Positions 4,463-17,315 of a DNA stretch of 33,048 nucleotides are shown piece by piece. The notes under the pieces were generated by a model, which did not search any database, was not told the DNA's origin, and worked only from the letters and a program-made list of their open reading frames with translations. Location: positions 1 to 33,048 of IMG/VR virus record IMGVR_UViG_3300005096_000130. The stretch is one strand, 5' to 3'. The position numbers and the translations under genes are program-made. Within the stretch, counting starts at the first letter, position 1. Every line of letters begins with the position of its first letter. This DNA comes from a virus.

Positions 4463-5925
4463 TGGGGCTTGTTACAGTAGGTGGTTATCCAGGACAACCA
4501 ATTCAGCAGTTTGCACGAGATACTCAACAAGGGTTACAGGCATTCTCTGCTTTAATCCGGCGGGCAGCATATGCTACAAGTTTGGGTGAGACATTTGGCG
4601 GGGATCGTGACCTTTATACTGCACTGGGTTGGAAGAAAGATCTTGTGTTTCAGGATTATTACAACAAGTATGATCGCCTTGAAATAGCGAAACGAGTTAT
4701 CAACTTGCCTGTTAAGTCCACGTGGAAAGCTGGATTCACTCTCGTTGATCCAGCGGCTGAATCCGGGAAGGTTACGAAGTTTGTGCAGGAGTGGCAAGCC
4801 ATGGAGAAGCGTTTACGGCTTACTCGTCAAATGCGCCGAGCAGACAGGCTCACCAGAGTAGGACAGTTTGGAATACTATTGCTTGGATATGACGATATAC
4901 AGGCACAGGCAGAGTTTGCGCAACCTGTACGTTTTAAGTTGAATCCTATTGATACTGAGATTGCCGCTTCTCCACGGAACCTTATTTATACAAAGGCGTT
5001 GAGTGAAAATAACATTACTGTTGCGGAGTTCGATAAAGACGTAAACAGCGAACGATATTGGCTGCCTAAGATATATCAAATTCAGTTTGATCGACCGGAC
5101 GGCAGCAAAAGTGAATCTTTTCGGGTACATTGGTCCAGAATTCTTCATATTACAGAGGAAATATTTGAAGATGAAACTTATGGCATTCCTTCTTTACGTA
5201 GTGCATTCAACCGCTTTGATGATATCGAGAAGATTATAGGCGGTTCTGCTGAGATGTTTTGGAGGGGAGCTCGACCCGGTTATGCGGCGAATATAGATAA
5301 AGATGCTCGCATGGGCACTAAGGATAAGGCGGATTTCCAGGATCAGTTGAAAGAATGGGAACATGATTTGAGGCGGTTTCTTTACACCAGAGGGATCGAG
5401 ATGCAGTCTCTTGCACCACAAATATCAGATCCTACTCAGCATTTTGACATACAGATTTCTTTGATTGCTGCAGCTTTTAATATTCCTAAGCGGATTCTTT
5501 TGGGGAGCGAGCGTGGCGAACTTGCCAGCAGTCAGGATGAGCGCAATTACTATGCTGGCATACAGGATCGGCAAGTGGATCATGCAGAGCCGGATATTGT
5601 GCGGCCTTTTATTGATCGGCAGATTCGGGCAGGGTTGCTTCCTGAGGTAGAAGATTATGAAATACAATGGCCTGATTTATACTCTGTTAATGATGAGGAT
5701 CAGGCAGGAATCAGCGAGAAGCTGAGCAAAGCACTCACTCAGTATTTCAAAGTTCCTGGTGCTGAAGATCAAATGCCTTTTGCGATATTTTTACGAGAAG
5801 TAATGAAGTGGAATCAGACTACGGTTGATGAAGTTGTGGCTTATCGAGATCAGCTGGAGGGGAAAGAGGCTGATCAGATCGAAGCAGATGAAAATGCCAT
5901 TGCGGAAGAGGGCTCAAACGAATAA
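4456..5925 (+). CDS. Portal protein (DUF1073 type)
   Basis: The portal is the dodecameric ring through which DNA enters and leaves the head. This 489-residue protein fits the DUF1073/phage_portal_3 type. The N-terminal part has GWKKDLVFQDYYNKYDRLEIAK, followed by KRVINLPVKSTWKAGF. The late segment FNIPKRILLGSERGELASSQDERNYY has the pattern of the family's conserved C-terminal region. It ends in an acidic tail. It starts at ATG 4456 inside the end of terL, after a GGGGG SD. Its stop overlaps the start of the next gene (TAATG), as expected for portal and minor head genes. Confidence 0.88.
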   Translation: MVMGLVTVGGYPGQPIQQFARDTQQGLQAFSALIRRAAYATSLGETFGGDRDLYTALGWKKDLVFQDYYNKYDRLEIAKRVINLPVKSTWKAGFTLVDPAAESGKVTKFVQEWQAMEKRLRLTRQMRRADRLTRVGQFGILLLGYDDIQAQAEFAQPVRFKLNPIDTEIAASPRNLIYTKALSENNITVAEFDKDVNSERYWLPKIYQIQFDRPDGSKSESFRVHWSRILHITEEIFEDETYGIPSLRSAFNRFDDIEKIIGGSAEMFWRGARPGYAANIDKDARMGTKDKADFQDQLKEWEHDLRRFLYTRGIEMQSLAPQISDPTQHFDIQISLIAAAFNIPKRILLGSERGELASSQDERNYYAGIQDRQVDHAEPDIVRPFIDRQIRAGLLPEVEDYEIQWPDLYSVNDEDQAGISEKLSKALTQYFKVPGAEDQMPFAIFLREVMKWNQTTVDEVVAYRDQLEGKEADQIEADENAIAEEGSNE

Positions 5926-8732
5926 TGCCTATAACAGCCTTACATAGCCATACACACGATCAAAGACCAGAGGTATATATAGGCCTCGGTTATGATCCTA
6001 CGCGCACTACAGGGCTACGTCAGCGCTTCTCAGGAGCATTATCGAAAAGGTTCCGCTCCCTTAAAGGGATTATTCGCAAAGCGATTATTCGACAGGATTG
6101 TTTTGGGCTCACCCGATTGAAGGGTGTTGTTGGTTTAGCCAGTAAGCCATGGGAGCAAATGGCTTATCCTACTCATCAGCAGTTTGCATTCACTCGGACA
6201 CAAGATAAGGTTGTCGGGTTTATGGATTGGCTGAAGGAGCAAGAGAACACTGGTATACTGGAAGTTACCAGCCGAGAACAGCTTGGACGCTCAATTGATT
6301 CTGCTTGGACAAATAAATATATAAGGTCAGCGTATCAACGTGGAATTGAACGAGGACGACAGGAAATGAAGAATGGTGGGCACGATGTACGTACTGTTCG
6401 GGAGCTTCCTGGCGGCATTAATTATGCATTCAATCAGCCTTTTCATATGGATAAGGTAGGTGCCATCTACACTCGGACTTTTACCGAACTGGTAGGCGTT
6501 ACACAGGCAATGGACCAGCAAATAAGCAGGGTGCTTACGCAAGGGCTTGTGGATGGTATTGGACCGCTGGCTCTGGCTGGAAAATTGAACAATCGGGTTG
6601 ATAAGATAGGGATTGCCAGAGCACGGACGATCGCTCGTACAGAAGTAATCCGAGCACATCATGTTGCTACCATACAGGAATATCGCAATGCCGGCGTGCT
6701 GGGGATCAAGGTGCTTGCTGAATGGGCCACAGCTGGTGATAATCGAGTCTGCCCTCAATGTGCTTGGTTATCCAGTTCTACTACTCGATATGGGTTTGGC
6801 ATTTATGATTTGGATACGATTGAAGGGATGATTCCAGTTCACCCAAACTGTCGGTGCATTGCTCTTCCTCTTGATATTACAGAGAATAAGAAATTGCTGA
6901 AACAGGTTGGAGTGGAGTCAAAGGCTGAAGTCACAACAGATAAGGATTCTCTTTTGAGGGCAGAAGTTGAGAAGGATGCTGTTGCAAGTAATTTTAAAAA
7001 TACCGCTGATGGCGTCCTTTATTTGAAAGAGAAGGTAAAGATTGAAAAGGCACTTGCGAAAATAGGAGTCAGAGAGGGCGATTTTTTTGAGGCTCAGCAT
7101 TCTGTGCTTGGTCGATTTATAACAAGCACTGTTCGCCCAGAATTTAAAAGATATATAAAGGAGCTTATTCCTGATTATTCTGAGCTTGTAAAATCTTGGG
7201 GGTTTTCTACTCAGAAAAGATATCCTTCTCTTTTTAAATTAAGAGCAGCTGAATTAGAGAAGGGATTGGATTCTGTCGTTGCCAAGGGATTTACGAAAGC
7301 AGAGCTATTAAAGCCGGAGAATCAAAGTTATATTGAAGGCTTATCAAAAAAATATTATATTCGTATTCGAGCCCTTAATCAGGTGGTTATGGAGAATTAT
7401 CTTGGGCTTGAAAATGGTGTGATGCCACCATTGTATAGAGGGATAGATGGCAGAACAGGCCGCAAGATCGCAGATGCAATAAAGAAAGGCTTGGCAAAGC
7501 AAAGAATGCGTACGAAGTGGCAGATTAAAGAGGCGAGTCTGTCTGGATATACGTCTGGTGAAATTAATGTCGCGGATGGATATGGGGCAGCTAAGGGCGG
7601 AATCACGATGCGCAGATCAAATGTTCCAATTTCAGATGTAATTGTCCATCGTCGATTATTAAGTGGATTGTCAGAATTGTATGCATCTGAAGAAGAGTAT
7701 ATTTTACTTGGTGGTGAGCGATCTCTGCTTTTGGACGATATAAAATTGAAGGACAAGCCATTTGGTGTAATTACTGAAAAGGCAAAAATCCCGATGGCCA
7801 GTATAGAAGAGAAGGCTGCTTGCGTAGTATCAGGGATCACGCATAATGCTGCAGTTGGTTTCTTTGTGCATAAACCGCAAGCGTGCCGAGATTATACTCG
7901 GTCAGCCACCGGGAAATGGATACTACAAGGACAAGAAGTTGTGGGAGAAGAAGCAACCCGGCTCAATAAGATGGGTGTGCCGCCTGCATGGACTAATGTA
8001 GTTGTTTCCAAAGACCCTACAGCAAAGGTGCTTGCTATTGGACAAGACGCGGCCGGCAGGTGGCAGTATAGGTATAATTCTGACTGGATTAAAAAGAAGG
8101 CGCAAGAAAAGTTTAATCGGGTGAAGCTATTCAGCCGGACCATGCCTACGATAGATGCGGCAGTAGAGGATGGGATTGCAGCTGGACAACACGAAGCTTT
8201 TCTGTTGCGTCTCGAGCAGAAAACAGCCATCCGGGCGGGTTCCAGGACTGATTTCAAGGCAAAGAAGAAAGCATATGGGCTCACTACTTTGAAAGGCAGC
8301 CATGTAACAGTAGAAGGCGATAAAATAATCCTTGATTTCGTGGCCAAAGAGGGAATCCCGGCACATTATGAATTGACGGACAGTACGCTTGCTCATTGGT
8401 TACGTGAGCGTAAGGCGGCTCTTGGCAGCAATCAGGATAAGTATCTATTTGAGGAAATACCAGCAGATAAATTGAATAAGTATTTGAGGAGAGTATCAAA
8501 AGGTAAGTTTTCAATTAAGGATTTTCGTACGTATCACGGTACTCGGATTGCATTTGAAGAGTTGCAAGCGTACAAAGAAGAGGCCTTGGCAGGATTGACA
8601 GTTAAAAGACGTAAGGCGATCGTAAAAGAAGTATCTACTACAGTCAGTAAATTTCTTCACAACACACCTGTAATGGCAAAGAATTCTTATATCGATCCTA
8701 TGGTATGGGAGATAATAGGAGGTGCGGAATAA
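5925..8732 (+). CDS. Minor head protein fused to ADP-ribosyltransferase-like and type IB topoisomerase domains
   Basis: This 935-residue protein has three recognisable parts. (1) At about residues 170-315 is a Mu gpF/SPP1 gp7-like head morphogenesis domain (ARTIARTEVIRAHH, then CPQC at 276-279 and HPNCRC at 306-311). (2) At about 365-620 is an ADP-ribosyltransferase-like domain of the R-S-E type: LYRG (R505), SGYTS (540-544) and ExE at E589/E591. (3) At about 630-935 is a type IB topoisomerase. Its N-terminal signature is VPPAWTNVVV then GQDAAGRWQYRYN. Its catalytic residues are R770, K808, R868, N913 (the bacterial equivalent of the poxvirus His) and nucleophile Y922. Spacings of 38, 60, 45 and 9 residues closely match bacterial TopIB. 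Fusions of gpF-like proteins with ART domains are known. The added complete TopIB is striking. Packaging in the virion and injection are inferred. Confidence 0.9.
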   Translation: MPITALHSHTHDQRPEVYIGLGYDPTRTTGLRQRFSGALSKRFRSLKGIIRKAIIRQDCFGLTRLKGVVGLASKPWEQMAYPTHQQFAFTRTQDKVVGFMDWLKEQENTGILEVTSREQLGRSIDSAWTNKYIRSAYQRGIERGRQEMKNGGHDVRTVRELPGGINYAFNQPFHMDKVGAIYTRTFTELVGVTQAMDQQISRVLTQGLVDGIGPLALAGKLNNRVDKIGIARARTIARTEVIRAHHVATIQEYRNAGVLGIKVLAEWATAGDNRVCPQCAWLSSSTTRYGFGIYDLDTIEGMIPVHPNCRCIALPLDITENKKLLKQVGVESKAEVTTDKDSLLRAEVEKDAVASNFKNTADGVLYLKEKVKIEKALAKIGVREGDFFEAQHSVLGRFITSTVRPEFKRYIKELIPDYSELVKSWGFSTQKRYPSLFKLRAAELEKGLDSVVAKGFTKAELLKPENQSYIEGLSKKYYIRIRALNQVVMENYLGLENGVMPPLYRGIDGRTGRKIADAIKKGLAKQRMRTKWQIKEASLSGYTSGEINVADGYGAAKGGITMRRSNVPISDVIVHRRLLSGLSELYASEEEYILLGGERSLLLDDIKLKDKPFGVITEKAKIPMASIEEKAACVVSGITHNAAVGFFVHKPQACRDYTRSATGKWILQGQEVVGEEATRLNKMGVPPAWTNVVVSKDPTAKVLAIGQDAAGRWQYRYNSDWIKKKAQEKFNRVKLFSRTMPTIDAAVEDGIAAGQHEAFLLRLEQKTAIRAGSRTDFKAKKKAYGLTTLKGSHVTVEGDKIILDFVAKEGIPAHYELTDSTLAHWLRERKAALGSNQDKYLFEEIPADKLNKYLRRVSKGKFSIKDFRTYHGTRIAFEELQAYKEEALAGLTVKRRKAIVKEVSTTVSKFLHNTPVMAKNSYIDPMVWEIIGGAE

Positions 8733-8863
8733 TGGATGAGAAGCGTGAAAAAGAATTTAATGCTTGGTTGGAATCAATTCGGTTTGTGGATGGATCCGGG
8801 AAACTCAAGCCTATTATATTGAAAAATGACACTTCACCGGACCCAGAAGGTGATAGGGGATAA
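8732..8863 (+). CDS. Small hypothetical protein (43 aa)
   Basis: It starts at ATG 8732, overlapping the stop of the fusion gene (TAATG), with AGGAGG about 8 nt upstream. The strong SD and tight packing support it as a real gene despite its size. The protein is acidic and basic mixed (MDEKREKEFNAWLESIRFVDG), has no membrane segment and is not recognised. Confidence 0.55.
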   Translation: MDEKREKEFNAWLESIRFVDGSGKLKPIILKNDTSPDPEGDRG

Positions 8864-8866
8864 ATT

Positions 8867-9055
8867 ATGCCAGGACTTATACAGCTTGCGCCAACTGAAG
8901 AGACTGAAGGCGGAGATGTGATTCTCAATTTTGATGCTACGGAGGATTGTGCTGACTGGTTAAAGTCAGTTCGGCTTTTGAAAAAGAATACCTCTCAAGC
9001 AAGGCGTGAATTAAATAGAATGCGCCAGAACCCCTTATATCGTGAGGTGGCATAG
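8867..9055 (+). CDS. Small hypothetical protein (62 aa)
   Basis: It begins MPGLIQLAPTEETEGG and ends in a basic helical segment (KKNTSQARRELNRMRQNP). A GGGG SD lies about 7 nt upstream and its TAG stop abuts the ATG of the next gene. It sits between the minor head and protease genes and may be a small head-assembly or scaffold accessory, but this is inferred from position only. Confidence 0.6.
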   Translation: MPGLIQLAPTEETEGGDVILNFDATEDCADWLKSVRLLKKNTSQARRELNRMRQNPLYREVA

Positions 9056-11293: not shown

Positions 11294-12415
11294 ATGCCTG
11301 AAATGATGGAAGTTATGTCGGATGTGCAGGTAGAAACAATGCACTTTGACAATGGCGCATTGGTAGCGGCAGGGCCGGTTGGCCAGTCGTTACTTGCGAA
11401 TGGGATGAACCCTGGAATACTGCGTCCGTATTGGGACCCAAAAGCCCGGAGGCCTGTTGCCAATGTGAATGGCCAGGTCCGTCCGGTGGCAAATGCCACT
11501 TTAAGGAAAGATGAATGGATTGAGCTGGATCAGGCGGTTCAGCGGGTCGCTCGTGAGCGACTCCGGGGTGTTGCTGACCTGGAAAGCAGAGGGCTTGTAT
11601 TTAACTTGAAGAATGGTCTTGGCACTACGGTCTTTGAGTATGAAACCATGAGTGATGCCGGTGCTGCTGATTTGAGCATGGATGGACTTCGCCGGACACA
11701 GAATGATCGGGTAGAGTATGGCCTGAAATATCTGCCTATCCCGATCGTTCACATGGATTTCAGAATCAATGCCCGGCAGCTTGAGGCCAGCAGAACCCGT
11801 GGCGATAATCTCCAGACCACCATGACTGAGCAGGCTACTCGCCGAGTGGCTGAAAAGCTGGAGGATATCCTGTTTAATGGGTCTGGGACATTCACCTATG
11901 GCGGCGGAACGATTTATGGTTATAAGGATTTCCCGCAGAGAGCACAGGTGACGTTGTCCACGAATTGGGATGCCTTGACCAAAGATTCCACCGGAACGAT
12001 TGGTGAGAAGATTTTGTCAGATGTACAGGATTGCATCAAAGCGGCCGGAGCAGCAAATCATTTTGGCCCGTTTATCCTGTATATCCCTAAAGCGTATGGT
12101 TACCTGATGGGGTCTGATTATACCACCGGGGATGGATCAGGTGGAAGTACGGCAGCGACCCGCACCATCCGGGAACGGCTGATGGCACTTGAGGAAATCA
12201 GTGATATCCGTATCGCTGATAAAATCGATGCCAATAATGTGTTCCTGGTGGAAATGAGCAGCGAAACCGTTCAGCTTATCAATGGCATGAATATTACTCC
12301 TGTGGAGTGGAAGACAGATGGCGGAATGGCTCTGTATTTCAAAGTCATGGGGATTAAGGTGCCGCTGATTCGTGCTGATTATGAGAACCAGAGCGGGATC
12401 GTACATCTGGCGTAG
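11294..12415 (+). CDS. Major capsid protein (DUF2184-like)
   Basis: This 373-residue protein is the HK97-fold shell subunit. The start at ATG 11294 is chosen because AAAGGAGG lies about 8 nt upstream; an upstream in-frame ATG (11252) would run through the SD and hairpin. Family-like features are an N-terminal arm (MNPGILRPYWDPKARRP), then VFEYETMSDAGAADLSMDG and VHMDFRINARQLEASRTRG. A central KLEDILFNGSGTFTYGG is followed by GLY-rich loops and IRIADKIDANNVFLVEMSS near the C-terminus. Size, position after protease and decoration genes, and the strong SD all agree. No obvious N-terminal delta domain of HK97 length is present, consistent with a separate scaffold. Confidence 0.87.
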   Translation: MPEMMEVMSDVQVETMHFDNGALVAAGPVGQSLLANGMNPGILRPYWDPKARRPVANVNGQVRPVANATLRKDEWIELDQAVQRVARERLRGVADLESRGLVFNLKNGLGTTVFEYETMSDAGAADLSMDGLRRTQNDRVEYGLKYLPIPIVHMDFRINARQLEASRTRGDNLQTTMTEQATRRVAEKLEDILFNGSGTFTYGGGTIYGYKDFPQRAQVTLSTNWDALTKDSTGTIGEKILSDVQDCIKAAGAANHFGPFILYIPKAYGYLMGSDYTTGDGSGGSTAATRTIRERLMALEEISDIRIADKIDANNVFLVEMSSETVQLINGMNITPVEWKTDGGMALYFKVMGIKVPLIRADYENQSGIVHLA

Positions 12416-12442
12416 TTAAGCCGGTTGTTAATCACGTTTATA

Positions 12443-12461
12443 TAGGTTTACCCACAACCTA
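12443..12461 (+). promoter_or_regulatory. Small hairpin after the capsid gene
   Basis: TAGGTT pairs with AACCTA around a 7-nt loop, between the capsid stop and the next SD. There is no U-run. It may mark an mRNA end or processing site. Weak on its own. Confidence 0.3.
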
Positions 12462-12482
12462 ATTCATCAAAGGAGAATGAAG

Positions 12483-12878
12483 ATGAAGCGCAAAAGAAAG
12501 CCTACTTTGCTTCCTTCTCAGGATAATGGTATTGTCCCGGAATTGCTGCAACCAATTCGGTGGCGTCGTAAACCCAATACTGGTGTACATTTCCGAGGTG
12601 GATACCAGCCTGTGAAACCTGGGGACACGGTCACAGCGACTCTAAAAGAGATCCGGCCATTTATCGATTGTTACGAAGCCTTAGAACCTATTCCTACTGG
12701 AGCGCCAGAAGAGGCGGTAGAGCCGGAAGGTGTTCCAGTGTTGGTACATAAAGGTGGCGGTCGGTATGATGTGATAAATTCGGCCACTAAAAAGCGGTAT
12801 AATGATGCGCTGTTGAATAAGGAGGAAGCCTTGGCATTCATCCAGACTGGCACCGAAGAACAGGAGCTGGAAGAATGA
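12483..12878 (+). CDS. Hypothetical protein after capsid, possible head accessory
   Basis: The start is ATG 12483 rather than 12477, because AGGAG ends at 12475 and only the later ATG has proper spacing (7 nt). The 131-residue product has a very basic start (MKRKRKPTLL). A beta-rich centre (VHFRGGYQPVKPGDTVTATL) is followed by a proline/glutamate linker. The C-terminal module GGGRYDVINSATKKRYNDALLNKEEALAFI resembles small domains seen in other phage head proteins. Function is not known. Its stop overlaps the start of the cassette gene that follows. Confidence 0.7.
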   Translation: MKRKRKPTLLPSQDNGIVPELLQPIRWRRKPNTGVHFRGGYQPVKPGDTVTATLKEIRPFIDCYEALEPIPTGAPEEAVEPEGVPVLVHKGGGRYDVINSATKKRYNDALLNKEEALAFIQTGTEEQELEE

Positions 12879-13675
12879 TTGCTTGGAAGCCACCGAAAAT
12901 ATGGCCCGGCGCAACTGTGTTTATCATTGGCGGTGGCCCAAGTATTACACAGGATCAATTAAAATTGCTTTGTGATTCCAAGAACCGTGGTAAATACAGG
13001 ATTATCGGGTGTAATAAAGCTTATCGGGAGGGCAGTTGGATTGATGCTATTTGGTGCGGGGATGATCGGTATTTTTTCAAGTATCGTAATGCCATGGTTC
13101 GTGAATATAATGGATTGCGTATCAGCCTGAGTAATGCTGCAGAACGAGATAAGCACTTTAAGTGGATGTGCAAGTTTCGTGGGGGCAAGAAACAAATGCG
13201 CCAGCTTGAAAAAATGATGAAGGACAGCCTTCTTGATCCTGTTGTATTCCGGACTTTGAAAAAAAATCCTACTACAGGGATCTGTCCTCTTCCTGGATAC
13301 ATATGCTGGAATAGTAATACTGGGTCATCTGCTATTAATCTTGCATATCATTTCGGGGCCCGGAAGATCGCGCTGATGGGCTTTGATATGCAATCTTTGC
13401 CAATCAAGAACCCCACATCAGCACAGCGTAAAACAGGGATTACTCGGCAGACTCATTATCACGAGGGTTATCCAGAATGGGGTGGTCCAAGTAAGAAATT
13501 ACCTTATAACCGATATCGTCGGCGGTTTCCTGTAATTGCCCAGCATGCGAAATTATTAGGGTTGGAGATCATCGATTGCAGCTTGAATGGTGCCTTGACC
13601 CAGTTTCCAAAGATTCCAGTTGAGCGGGTGATTATCGAGGAGTGTCAAGCCCATTCGTCAAATAATTTAATTTGA
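12875..13675 (+). CDS. Rossmann-like MAF/DUF115-type protein, possible glycan-modifying enzyme
   Basis: This 266-residue protein opens with a nucleotide-binding-like strand and loop (GATVFIIGGGPSITQDQL, residues about 12-29). A conserved-looking RIIGCNKAYREGSWIDAIWCGDD follows (quoted in two parts: RIIGCNKAYR and DAIWCGDD). A later part reads GSSAINLAYHFGARKIALMG then FDMQ. This layout resembles MAF-flagellin-type/DUF115 and sialyltransferase-like proteins. The substrate cannot be read from the sequence. It begins the accessory cassette and overlaps its upstream neighbour by 4 nt. Alternative: another Rossmann protein of unknown role. Confidence 0.55.
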   Translation: MIAWKPPKIWPGATVFIIGGGPSITQDQLKLLCDSKNRGKYRIIGCNKAYREGSWIDAIWCGDDRYFFKYRNAMVREYNGLRISLSNAAERDKHFKWMCKFRGGKKQMRQLEKMMKDSLLDPVVFRTLKKNPTTGICPLPGYICWNSNTGSSAINLAYHFGARKIALMGFDMQSLPIKNPTSAQRKTGITRQTHYHEGYPEWGGPSKKLPYNRYRRRFPVIAQHAKLLGLEIIDCSLNGALTQFPKIPVERVIIEECQAHSSNNLI

Positions 13676-13704
13676 CTTTGACAGGATAGAGTAGGAGAAG
13701 TCTG

Positions 13705-14370
13705 ATGCTTGGTAAGAATGCTCATATTATAGTGTGTGGATTCCCGCGAGCAGGGGTATCGCTGCTTTACTATATGCTTGCATGGGCACTTCCGGATGAG
13801 TTTAAACGATATCCGCGTCAGACTTCCGCATTTCGTGTTTTAAACGATCCTGGCCCAAAGCTGACCTTTGCTCCTTCTGATTTATTTTGGATTAAAGAAT
13901 TGGCTATCAGGTCGTCTGACGTCCGTTTTCTGGTGGTGGTCCGAGACCCGAGAGGCGTTTTGACCTCAAAAGATAGTTCTGGTCAGTATTGTATAGATTG
14001 GGATAAATCAGCCTTACCAAATATACTTGGCTTGAAACAGTTTTATGAGATGGCTGTTTCAGACGCTGTGTTATCCAATGAGCTGGTCTATCGCACCAGT
14101 TTCGAAGATATTGTTTGTCATTCACAACCAATGCGGGAACGGATATCTACCTTTTTGGGTATCCGGCTTTATGGTATCTTTGAGGAGTTCCATCTCCGTA
14201 AAGACCATCAGCATCTTAAGCCATTGGATTTCTCACGGGTTCATAGGTGGAAAAATGATAAAGGAGATATGGATCGGGTTCATAACCAGATTACCCGGTT
14301 CCCAGAAATCAAAATAGCACTTGATGTGCTTGGATATTCAGGAGGGCGTTCATGGCTGGATTGGCGATAA
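13705..14370 (+). CDS. Sulfotransferase-like protein
   Basis: This 221-residue protein has the PAPS-dependent sulfotransferase layout. The 5'-phosphosulfate loop is IIVCGFPRAGVSLLYYML near residues 8-25. The 3'-phosphate-binding strand and helix is FLVVVRDPRGVLTSKDSS near residues 72-89. It would transfer sulfate from PAPS to a sugar, lipid or peptide. The protein is short for the family, so acceptor-side elements may be reduced. SD AGGAGAAG precedes ATG 13705. It overlaps the methyltransferase-glycosyltransferase gene by 19 nt, implying coupled expression. Confidence 0.72.
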   Translation: MLGKNAHIIVCGFPRAGVSLLYYMLAWALPDEFKRYPRQTSAFRVLNDPGPKLTFAPSDLFWIKELAIRSSDVRFLVVVRDPRGVLTSKDSSGQYCIDWDKSALPNILGLKQFYEMAVSDAVLSNELVYRTSFEDIVCHSQPMRERISTFLGIRLYGIFEEFHLRKDHQHLKPLDFSRVHRWKNDKGDMDRVHNQITRFPEIKIALDVLGYSGGRSWLDWR

Positions 14371-15977
14371 AAAAGGAGCCGAGAGAGAATTGGATACCTT
14401 GCTTTTGCGAGGAAGTAAGAGGAGACTCCTTTGTAAAGAATGGGATTGATGTGGTGAAGTGCTCCTCTTGTGGGGTGATTCGGCAGATCAATCTCCCGTT
14501 TTCCACCCGAGAGGATCTGTATAAATATTATGAAACTGAATACACTTTAAATAAACTCCATACATATTCCCATGATTATAAGATAGCGAAAGATCGAGTT
14601 GATCGTTATAATGTGCTATTTCCTGGAGTGTTTCGGGGCCGAGGGCTTGATATTGGAGCTGGTAATAGTGCATTTGTGAAATTATTGGGCGAGAGCCGGA
14701 TCGATTGTGTAGGGTGTGAACCCCGATTGAAAGAGGATCAGGCCCACACTTACAAGGGACCATTCGAGGAAATTCATTATCCTACGGACCGATTTAATTT
14801 TATTACTTGCCATGATGTGATTGAACATACTTATGATCCGCAGTTCTTTCTGCAAGAGATTTTCCGGACGTTGAAGCCGGGTGGCATGTTTATTATGGAT
14901 ATGCCTGCATTTTTTGATGGTAAAGCTGGGGTTCATCATTGGAAGAAGGTGGAGCATATATGGTATTTCTCAATTCAGCAAATAGAGCAGTTATTACAGA
15001 TGGTGGGCTTCAAGATAATTCTAAAAGATCGTCCTATTGAAGGCAAGGTAGTATTCTATTGCTCGAAAGATGAGCAAGATCGATTGAAAATCCTTCTGCC
15101 TCCGGGAATAGGAGATACCTATTGGTCGATCGTGAAATTGGAATCTTTTTTGCGGAATCAAGGCGTTTCTATTGCGGACGCTGGTATTGCATGTGAGCCT
15201 GATGCAGATGGTCGGCATTCACGTTCATTTGATTTCATTTCAAAGTTCCCTTTTCTAAATGCGAGCGGGGATGTGGTTTCCCGGACGAAGAATGCTAAGA
15301 TTTGGAAAGAAGCATATATGCAGGCAGGCCGTACTATCTTTAAGCGGGTGGCAAATTATGATTACTTTATGGCTTACAATGGTGTTATGCGGCATGGCAA
15401 ATCATTATATGAGGTAGACCGTGATCTTGCAGTAGAGTGGTATCCTGATATGTATAAATCGTTGGAGGCCCGGATTGCTGAACGTGTATATCGGAAATCT
15501 TTTGGTGAGAGATATATTGTATTCTATTTTGTGTCGGCGGGTATGTATAAGAAATGGCTTGCCCAATATCCTGTAGAGCAGCTTGCTTATTGTATTAACG
15601 AGGTATGCCGACAGACCGGGTGTATTGCTATATTGGCCGGTGCTAAGTGGGATGTTTCCGATCCGGTAGTCAAGCGATTGAATTCATCTTGTGCCAATAT
15701 GATCAACCTTACGGGCACTACTTCTTTTGATCAGCTTGAAGGACTAATACGAGGAGCACAAGCAGTTGTGGGCTATCCTTCTGGCTTGACTATTATTTCC
15801 ACAATCTATAAAACCCAGACGGTTATGCTGTGGAATAACTATTTTAATCGGAAATTCTGGAAGAATGCATGCCCACCGGACAGCCTTGGAAATTGGTATC
15901 ATTTCGTAGATACTTATCAACTGAAAGATGAGCATCTGATCAGCATGATAATTCGTGCTGTAGGAGGTCTCACATGA
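14352..15977 (+). CDS. SAM methyltransferase fused to GT9-like glycosyltransferase
   Basis: This 541-residue protein has two parts. The N-terminal half carries a zinc-binding cluster (C17, C19, C37, C40) and a class I methyltransferase fold. Motif I is GLDIGAGNSAFVKLLG at about residues 98-113, followed by FITCHDVIEHTYDPQFF and LKPGGMFIMDMPAF, as in sugar C- and O-methyltransferases. The C-terminal half (about 245-541) looks like a GT9/heptosyltransferase: ILLPPGIGDTYWSIVKLESF, then AILAGAKWDV, then NLTGTTSFDQLEGLIRGAQAVVGYPSG. GGAGGG precedes ATG 14352. A methyltransferase-glycosyltransferase fusion suggests building of a methylated glycan. Confidence 0.75.
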   Translation: MAGLAIKKEPRENWIPCFCEEVRGDSFVKNGIDVVKCSSCGVIRQINLPFSTREDLYKYYETEYTLNKLHTYSHDYKIAKDRVDRYNVLFPGVFRGRGLDIGAGNSAFVKLLGESRIDCVGCEPRLKEDQAHTYKGPFEEIHYPTDRFNFITCHDVIEHTYDPQFFLQEIFRTLKPGGMFIMDMPAFFDGKAGVHHWKKVEHIWYFSIQQIEQLLQMVGFKIILKDRPIEGKVVFYCSKDEQDRLKILLPPGIGDTYWSIVKLESFLRNQGVSIADAGIACEPDADGRHSRSFDFISKFPFLNASGDVVSRTKNAKIWKEAYMQAGRTIFKRVANYDYFMAYNGVMRHGKSLYEVDRDLAVEWYPDMYKSLEARIAERVYRKSFGERYIVFYFVSAGMYKKWLAQYPVEQLAYCINEVCRQTGCIAILAGAKWDVSDPVVKRLNSSCANMINLTGTTSFDQLEGLIRGAQAVVGYPSGLTIISTIYKTQTVMLWNNYFNRKFWKNACPPDSLGNWYHFVDTYQLKDEHLISMIIRAVGGLT

Positions 15978-16603
15978 TCATATGCTGTGTTTTAAAATCA
16001 GGAGGGGTATATACCCCTATTTATGTTGACAGGTTGTATAAGGCATGTAGGAAGTTCCTGGTTGGGGATTTTGATTTTGTCTGCTTAACCGATTATGATC
16101 CTGAAGATTTTATACCGGGTGTCAAGACAATCCGGCTCAAGAAGAATTATCCTTCGTGGTGGAGCAAGATCGAGGCATTTCGGATCGAGGATGAGCAGGT
16201 TTTATACCTTGATTTAGATACTGTGATTGCTTCTTTTATTGGTCTTTACAATTTACAGAGATTAAGGCCGGTGGCAATGCTAAAGCCATTTAGGCAGCAA
16301 GAGAGGTGGGCTTCTGGTGTGATGTATTGGCAGGGGTCTTTAAAATTTGTATTCGATGAATTTATCTACGCAATTGACAGCCGGGTGCGCTGGGACCAAC
16401 GCTATATCTCAGCTAAGATTGAAGAGCATGTGATAACAATTAATCCGGTCCAAAAGGCAATTATGGTGGCATCCTATAAACATGATTGTAAGATAGGAGT
16501 TCCATTTGGAACTCAGCTCGTGTGTTTTCACGGATATCCTCGGCCACATCAAGTAACCAGCGAGCGGTGGTTGGACCGGCTATGGAGGGGCGATGCGAAT
16601 TAA
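15974..16603 (+). CDS. GT-A glycosyltransferase-like protein with DxD
   Basis: This 209-residue protein starts MIICCVLKSGGVYTPIYV. It has the nucleotide-sugar-transferase pattern FDFVCLTDYDPEDF, then SWWSKIEAF, then VLYLDLDTVI. D80-L-D82 is the expected metal-binding DxD. A later aromatic WASGVMYWQGS and a C-terminal VCFHGYPRPHQV complete a layout seen in small phage-encoded glycosyltransferases. A TAGGAGG SD precedes the start, which overlaps the upstream stop by 4 nt. Donor and acceptor are unknown. Confidence 0.7.
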   Translation: MIICCVLKSGGVYTPIYVDRLYKACRKFLVGDFDFVCLTDYDPEDFIPGVKTIRLKKNYPSWWSKIEAFRIEDEQVLYLDLDTVIASFIGLYNLQRLRPVAMLKPFRQQERWASGVMYWQGSLKFVFDEFIYAIDSRVRWDQRYISAKIEEHVITINPVQKAIMVASYKHDCKIGVPFGTQLVCFHGYPRPHQVTSERWLDRLWRGDAN

Positions 16604-17315
16604 AAACTGGACAGAAGAGCAGAGAAGATTATTGCGTGCTCCAATTCTTATTACAGGGTGTGCCCGGTCAGGCACCTCCCTTGTCGCTGGAGTAATCCAT
16701 TATTGTGGCGCTTGGATTGGCAAAGTGACAGGAAAAACGCGGTATAACCAAAAAGGCCAATTTGAAAATTCATTTATTCGAGACAGGATAGTGAAGCCGT
16801 ACATCACCAATCAAGGATATGATCCTTTGGGCCAGCGTCCTCTACCGAAGATCGATAAGTTACGAATCGATCCATATCTGCGTAATAAAGTAGAAACAAC
16901 TATTTATACCCAGGGTTATCGAGGTGAAACCCAGTGGGCATATAAAGGAGCAAAACTCTGTTTAATCTGGCCGAATTGGATCCTTGCATTTCCGGATGCA
17001 AAATGGATTATTGTGCGCAGGAAGGACGAAGAGATTGCAAATAGTTGCCTCAGGACAGGATTCATGCGGAAGTATTCGGATGCTATGGGGTGGTTAAGGT
17101 GGGTGGACCATCACAAAGCCCGGTTTGCTGAACTCAAACAGCAGACGGATTCCATCCGAGAGGTATGGCCTGAGAAGATGTTCAAGGGGAATTGGGCAGA
17201 GATTAAATCTGTGGTTGCTTGGCTGGGGTTGGATTGGAATCGTGAAATGGTACACGGATTTCTTGAGCCTCGGTTATGGAATAAGGGCAAAGGAAATGAT
17301 GGGGGTGGGAAATGA
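16593..17315 (+). CDS. Second sulfotransferase-family protein
   Basis: This 240-residue protein has a P-loop-like PILITGCARSGTSLVAGVI at about residues 17-35, matching the 5'-PSB loop of sulfotransferases. The 3'-phosphate region is likely WIIVRRKDEEIANSCLRTG at about 135-153. The sequence is only distantly similar to the first sulfotransferase of the cassette, so the two probably act on different sites or substrates and are not a recent duplication. GGAGGGG precedes ATG 16593, and both ends overlap neighbouring genes by a few bases. Confidence 0.7.
   Translation: MRIKNWTEEQRRLLRAPILITGCARSGTSLVAGVIHYCGAWIGKVTGKTRYNQKGQFENSFIRDRIVKPYITNQGYDPLGQRPLPKIDKLRIDPYLRNKVETTIYTQGYRGETQWAYKGAKLCLIWPNWILAFPDAKWIIVRRKDEEIANSCLRTGFMRKYSDAMGWLRWVDHHKARFAELKQQTDSIREVWPEKMFKGNWAEIKSVVAWLGLDWNREMVHGFLEPRLWNKGKGNDGGGK

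Follow-up and report, generated by a model that had tools for sequence, protein, structure and literature searches.

We analyzed a 33,048-nt stretch of DNA (hereafter the window), the partial record IMGVR_UViG_3300005096_000130 of an uncultivated tailed virus in IMG/VR. One of its head genes is an uninterrupted open reading frame (ORF) whose 935-amino acid product joins a MuF-type head protein, an ADP-ribosyltransferase (ART)-like domain and a type IB topoisomerase (TopIB) on a single chain (Table 1). An earlier reading of this DNA, hereafter the original prediction, had assigned the same three parts to the gene.

Domains of the fusion protein

By sequence, the C-terminal residues ~660-935 are a type IB topoisomerase with a complete active site. 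Two Pfam families match above their cut-offs, namely Top1B_N_bact (PF21338; residues 675-708, E = 1.6e-8, 34.6 bits against a cut-off of 27) and Topoisom_I (PF01028; residues 719-918, E = 1.3e-21, 77.5 bits against 23.7). The closest solved structure is that of Deinococcus radiodurans TopIB (E = 3.6e-31), and an AlphaFold2 model of the linker and TopIB matches the TopIB structure 3m4a (E = 3.5e-15), all 22 significant structure matches of this model being to TopIB. The active-site pentad stands at the positions named in the original prediction and is unvaried in the first 11 viral sequences aligned. Across the 77 viral TopIB proteins described below, counting residues present, the R/K/R triad is found in 77 of 77, Y in 76 of 76 and N in 75 of 76, and the pentad is complete in all but one or two proteins. 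Assignment to the tyrosine recombinases was rejected: the best recombinase, XerH, matched the model with an E-value of 0.07, and Pfam returned no integrase family.

The MuF domain scores 52.6 bits against a cut-off of 29.6 for PF04233, and residues 24-326 match the head morphogenesis family phrog_758 (E = 3.1e-31) in a gene that directly follows the portal gene. Nine MuF proteins among the loci examined carry intein-like insertions at a conserved site, between HPNC and RC; some of these insertions contain homing-endonuclease-like regions, and one locus (L035) pairs a LAGLIDADG-like insertion with TopIB.

Support is weaker for the middle domain, residues ~474-621, which is probably a DraT-like ART of the R-S-E type. 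In an alignment with 7 relatives (30-45% identity), drawn from the MuF proteins of contigs L040, L041, L052, L053 and L061 and from L007, the R, E and E are unvaried and a G-[FY]-[ST] loop is kept. The DRAT family (PF07357) is matched by 6 of the 7 members, with a best E-value of 7e-8; the window copy by itself reaches 0.013, under the cut-off, and no ART family was matched by Pfam in the full-length 935-amino acid protein. The AlphaFold2 model of the domain has a predicted local distance difference test score of 84, and neither Foldseek with this model nor a profile search against the PDB returned anything significant there.

The fusion ORF is real and, on the evidence at hand, did not arise by misjoining, because each type of junction recurs in other contigs: MuF-ART in L040, L041, L052, L053 and L061, ART-TopIB in L007, and MuF-TopIB in L002 and L037. 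An assembly error that fused separate genes might be suspected in a metagenomic contig judged without its reads. We regard such an error as extremely improbable given that equal junction types occur in many independent contigs and metagenomes, that the start of the gene overlaps the portal stop codon (TAATG), and that its stop overlaps the ATG of the small ORF at 8732.

These results bear out the original prediction on the identities of the MuF and TopIB domains, and none of the findings that it had named as fatal (no profile or structural match to TopIB, alignment to tyrosine recombinases, proof of an ORF produced by an assembly join) was made. We find the ART residues that it had pointed out, namely R505, E589-x-E591 and the G-Y-T-S loop. 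The ART profile search that it had proposed gave matches among the relatives, with the window copy alone under the cut-off and no significant structure match. Its domain limits need revision, to ~660-933 from 630-935 for TopIB and to ~474-621 from 365-620 for the ART.

Table 1. Coordinates of the fusion gene, its domains and adjoining genes in the window
Feature	Position	Strand	Evidence
Portal protein, 489 amino acids	4456..5925	+	phrog_146, E 2.2e-59
Fusion gene: MuF head protein, ART-like domain and type IB topoisomerase, 935 amino acids	5925..8732	+	
MuF domain, residues 198-312 (CPQC, HPNCRC)	6516..6860	+	PF04233 (Phage_Mu_F), E 9.3e-14
ART-like domain, probably DraT-like, residues ~474-621 (R505, G-Y-T-S, E589-x-E591)	7344..7787	+	Alignment; PF07357 in relatives
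Linker motif PMASIEEKAAC (family PMxx[IV][GE]xxxxC), residues 623-633	7791..7823	+	Precedes TopIB in relatives
Type IB topoisomerase, residues ~660-935; pentad R770, K808, R868, N913, Y922	7902..8729	+	Pfam, PDB relative, alignment, model
Microprotein, 43 amino acids, MDEKREKEFNAWLESIRFVDGSGKLKPIILKNDTSPDPEGDRG	8732..8863	+	Family hidden Markov model; ATG overlaps TopIB stop
Probable prohead protease with long C-terminal region, 546 amino acids	9056..10696	+	phrog_760, E 1.6e-34

The fusion gene occupies the usual MuF slot, preceded by genes for the small terminase, large terminase and portal and followed by those for the probable protease, a decoration protein, the major capsid protein, neck, tail chaperone and tape measure. 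The protease ORF has additional, weaker matches to head maturation proteases and one to DUF2213 (E = 2.8e-4, slightly under the cut-off), and is a candidate processor of the fusion protein. The nearest named relatives of the window are mixed (halovirus Hardycor1, Brevundimonas phages and Croceibacter phages), the Hardycor1 portal being closest to the window portal at 35%. Between the capsid and tail genes (12875-17315) lies a carbohydrate cassette that encodes a sialyltransferase-like protein (phrog_4603, E = 2e-25), a glycosyltransferase (phrog_1962), a P-loop protein that looks sulfotransferase-like by eye and a methyltransferase/glycosyltransferase-like protein; it could possibly decorate virion or host glycans.

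Distribution of head-protein-linked topoisomerases and their microprotein

Successive IMG/VR queries with TopIB only gave 11, then 28, then 209 matches, of which 80 loci were kept; deduplication left 77 distinct viral TopIB proteins, including that of the window. Partners were labelled using Pfam and profiles built for this analysis, and three by hand (L162, L035 and L135). Of the 77 proteins, about 42 are joined to various unrelated head proteins (MuF-type or minor capsid proteins in 25, portals in 16, portal plus MuF in 1), 17 are solo and 18 have other N-termini. The portal partners belong to two Pfam families, and several of the other N-termini carry ART, zincin-like, pyrophosphatase or 2H/Acb1-like domains. 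Solo genes and those with other N-termini often adjoin portal, MuF or scaffold genes; the order portal-MuF-TopIB is found in L004, a scaffold gene adjoins in L019, and five further solo genes stand beside a MuF or minor head protein gene. On the TopIB tree we counted at least 6 changes between portal and MuF partners and 29 across all labels, while labels also cluster. These repeated switches point to TopIB as a portable module that moves between head proteins. In seven loci TopIB shares one chain with 2H/Acb1-like (anti-CBASS), inorganic pyrophosphatase, rubrerythrin/ferritin-like or GNAT domains, and one 281-kb contig (L183) has a solo TopIB as well as a second, weaker TopIB-like gene (12311-14002, E = 6e-15).

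A different picture emerged when the MuF domain of the window was the IMG/VR query. It found 90 relatives, and among the best 80 of these 90 loci not one MuF protein is fused to TopIB. Most of these MuF proteins are short and several are MuF-ART proteins; TopIB occurs elsewhere in three of the loci, on the portal in L071 and L083 and on a separate effector protein in L092. Since most MuF-query loci lack TopIB, the enzyme is accessory. In 50,697 phage records we found no fusion of a head protein to TopIB and only two TopIB matches, neither seen as such a fusion, and a portal-based scan of viral contigs gave no match.

In the MuF clade, TopIB is accompanied by a small gene. The microprotein of the window belongs to a family of ~45 amino acids with the consensus ExDFxEWLxSIxFVDKxGKxLPxxLTxDxSxDPEGDR, which the family hidden Markov model detects directly 3′ of TopIB in 27 of the 29 MuF-clade members with enough downstream sequence, in 0 of 45 other TopIB loci and in 0 of 80 MuF-query loci. 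An IMG/VR search with the microprotein alone, using a narrowed alignment, gave 7 loci, all on already known TopIB contigs, and no convincing match was found in Pfam, the PDB or phage records. More generally, an acidic small ORF of any kind follows 41 of 70 TopIB genes as compared to 15 of 307 other genes; the window microprotein is only mildly acidic (charge about −2.5) and fails the charge filter of this count, while fitting the family. In the portal clade, acidic micro-ORFs of other types come after TopIB (in L155, L182, L157, L158, L154 and others), one type ending in LGFDP and another containing EFFxTVxYD; they are possibly distant kin of the window microprotein. A second small ORF follows the microprotein gene in the window (8867-9055; MPGLIQLAP...DWLKSVRLLKKNT), and a similar piece lies near position 7037 of L007.

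Two short motifs mark the approach to TopIB. The motif PMxx[IV][GE]xxxxC directly precedes it in 13-14 fusions with several MuF types, in one copy per protein and in a region predicted to be disordered. An internal translation start that would yield a separate TopIB was rejected: no consistent ribosome-binding site lies upstream of the motif and the Pro before the Met is conserved, hence we take it as a protein motif. Release by the prohead protease, which the original prediction had raised, is hypothetical: the linker is predicted to be disordered and carries this conserved motif, but the motif is absent from the other genes of the window, and reading it as a generic prohead-protease site is tentative. 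In the portal clade, TopIB is preceded by a distinct tag, [HQ]PRDxxG[KR][FW] (HPRDxxGKF), which also stands N-terminal to the effector domain in adjoining separate ART and pyrophosphatase genes and was observed 33 times against 0.65 expected from shuffled ORFs. Six loci have the tag on separate effector genes beside TopIB. The sequences suggest that the PM motif and the PRD tag are candidate processing or head-targeting sites.

A proposed virion-delivered topoisomerase and its alternatives

We tentatively propose, at a little under an even chance, that a mobile two-gene module brings TopIB, with its complete active site, into the head. There the enzyme would be accessory cargo, serving to relax the DNA as the genome enters the cell, and the microprotein would act as a restraint. 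The TopIB-microprotein module would be inserted at the portal or minor-head-protein slot of tailed-virus genomes, and the MuF or portal part would position TopIB within the head, at the gate for the DNA, with the ART of the window virus presumably travelling on the same chain. At genome ejection TopIB, whole or freed at the linker, may accompany or act on the entering DNA, where it could remove torsional stress without ATP and thereby aid first transcription or circularisation, as has been suggested for the TopIB encapsidated by poxviruses. In the producing cell the microprotein would probably restrain TopIB, a role also proposed for the small ORF that follows MuF toxins. That the virion delivers the enzyme as the DNA enters is plausible from analogous systems and from the company that the enzyme keeps: predicted injected effectors (ART, pyrophosphatase and 2H/Acb1-like) occur with TopIB on one chain or in one operon and bear the same peptide tag, and injection is the presumed fate of enzymes fused to MuF or portal proteins (PMC5512222, PMC9503650). 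The MuF protein gp7 of SPP1 enters the procapsid via the portal, and of the virions that lack it just ~25% are infectious (PMC6316719), while vaccinia packages a TopIB that is active in early transcription, according to the statements in PMC12188299 that draw on its references 72 and 73. The more specific proposal that the virion delivers the pair as a DNA-topology effector together with an inhibitor, the enzyme being built into the portal vertex, held off by the microprotein during assembly and active on entry, is possible, if on balance doubtful.

Several points weigh against delivery of a restrained enzyme. The evidence consists of sequences of uncultivated viruses alone, and the counts across loci are not phylogenetically independent. 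Some TopIB proteins with other N-termini have no recognised head domain. An enzyme fused to the portal would stay fixed in the particle if it were not cut off, and cleavage is hypothetical; the restraining role of the microprotein is a guess from its position. Two scans of ~85,000 genomes gave no relatives and hence no link to a lysogen or host.

The delivered enzyme might instead act on the host: together with the ART, TopIB would relax the chromosome or disarm a topology-sensing defence, and the microprotein would serve as an immunity protein. The company that TopIB keeps is what one would expect in this case, since the same chains bear ARTs, zincin-like proteases, 2H/Acb1-like anti-CBASS domains and pyrophosphatases, and, as with most MuF toxins (PMC5576092), a small ORF comes next, here a specific microprotein. 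However, TopIB is not among the known toxins, the microprotein goes with TopIB even in proteins that lack an ART, and we found nothing that ties the module to a defence system, which leaves a host-directed role rather unlikely. We consider it unlikely, too, that TopIB works within the particle, remaining at the portal and relieving torsion during packaging or ejection. Fusion to the portal ring, seen in 16 cases, would bring as many as 12 copies to the channel for the DNA; yet the enzyme is sometimes internal in long effector strings or encoded by a separate gene, and the disordered linker and the tags common to other effectors suggest a passenger rather than a motor part. The accessory spread of TopIB, with loci bearing the same MuF domain mostly devoid of it, also makes torsion relief as a packaging requirement, which the original prediction had offered, unlikely. 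Finally, a TopIB-derived domain could bind DNA in a structural role without catalysis, as SPP1 gp7 is itself called DNA-binding in the title of a reference in PMC6316719; the R, K, R and Y unvaried in all complete members of 77 diverse proteins make this highly improbable.

If accessory delivery holds, the particles of many uncultivated tailed viruses come with a topoisomerase encoded by the virus itself. To our knowledge, a virion-carried topoisomerase is otherwise known from poxviruses. The topology of incoming phage DNA would become a testable question, and a new enzyme class would join the head-packaged effectors, together with a new microprotein family that may regulate TopIB. TopIB-head fusions were invisible in the cultured-phage records searched.

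Comparison with known systems

Head-protein-fused effectors are already known as a class, and MuF-ART fusions have been described (PMC5576092, PMC5512222, PMC9503650). The statement in the original prediction that no characterised system has this architecture holds for a head protein joined to TopIB, for which we found neither a phage-record fusion nor a paper in the literature searched, which covered few subscription journals. Relative to that literature, the novelty lies in TopIB among head-protein-fused effectors, in its breadth and in the microprotein; the breadth of the family, the portal fusions and the linked microprotein extend the original prediction.

The MuF polymorphic toxins (Jamet 2017, PMC5576092), such as the EFV toxin of E. 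faecalis V583, likewise join a MuF head domain to a C-terminal effector, ARTs included, with a small ORF directly downstream, as in the window. They are prophage toxins described without mention of a topoisomerase, whereas no prophage was found for the window family in ~85,000 genomes scanned and the partner protein here tracks TopIB. Polyvalent proteins with MuF or portal domains (Iyer 2017, PMC5512222; PMC9503650) also combine a head protein with strings of predicted injected enzymes, but have no TopIB module, "topoisomerase" occurring there just in a reference title. SPP1 gp7 is a MuF-family minor head protein encoded after the portal, as here, but without a C-terminal enzyme. T4 Alt is an ART packaged in the head and injected, but it has neither a MuF nor a TopIB fusion, and the window ART is probably DraT-like. 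TopIBs of bacteria (D. radiodurans, 2f4q/3m4a) and poxviruses share the fold and pentad of the window enzyme, the bacterial ones with Asn at the position of N913 as in the window, and poxviruses too carry TopIB in the virion. Bacterial and poxvirus TopIBs are free enzymes, whereas the viral TopIBs described here are mostly fused to or beside head proteins.

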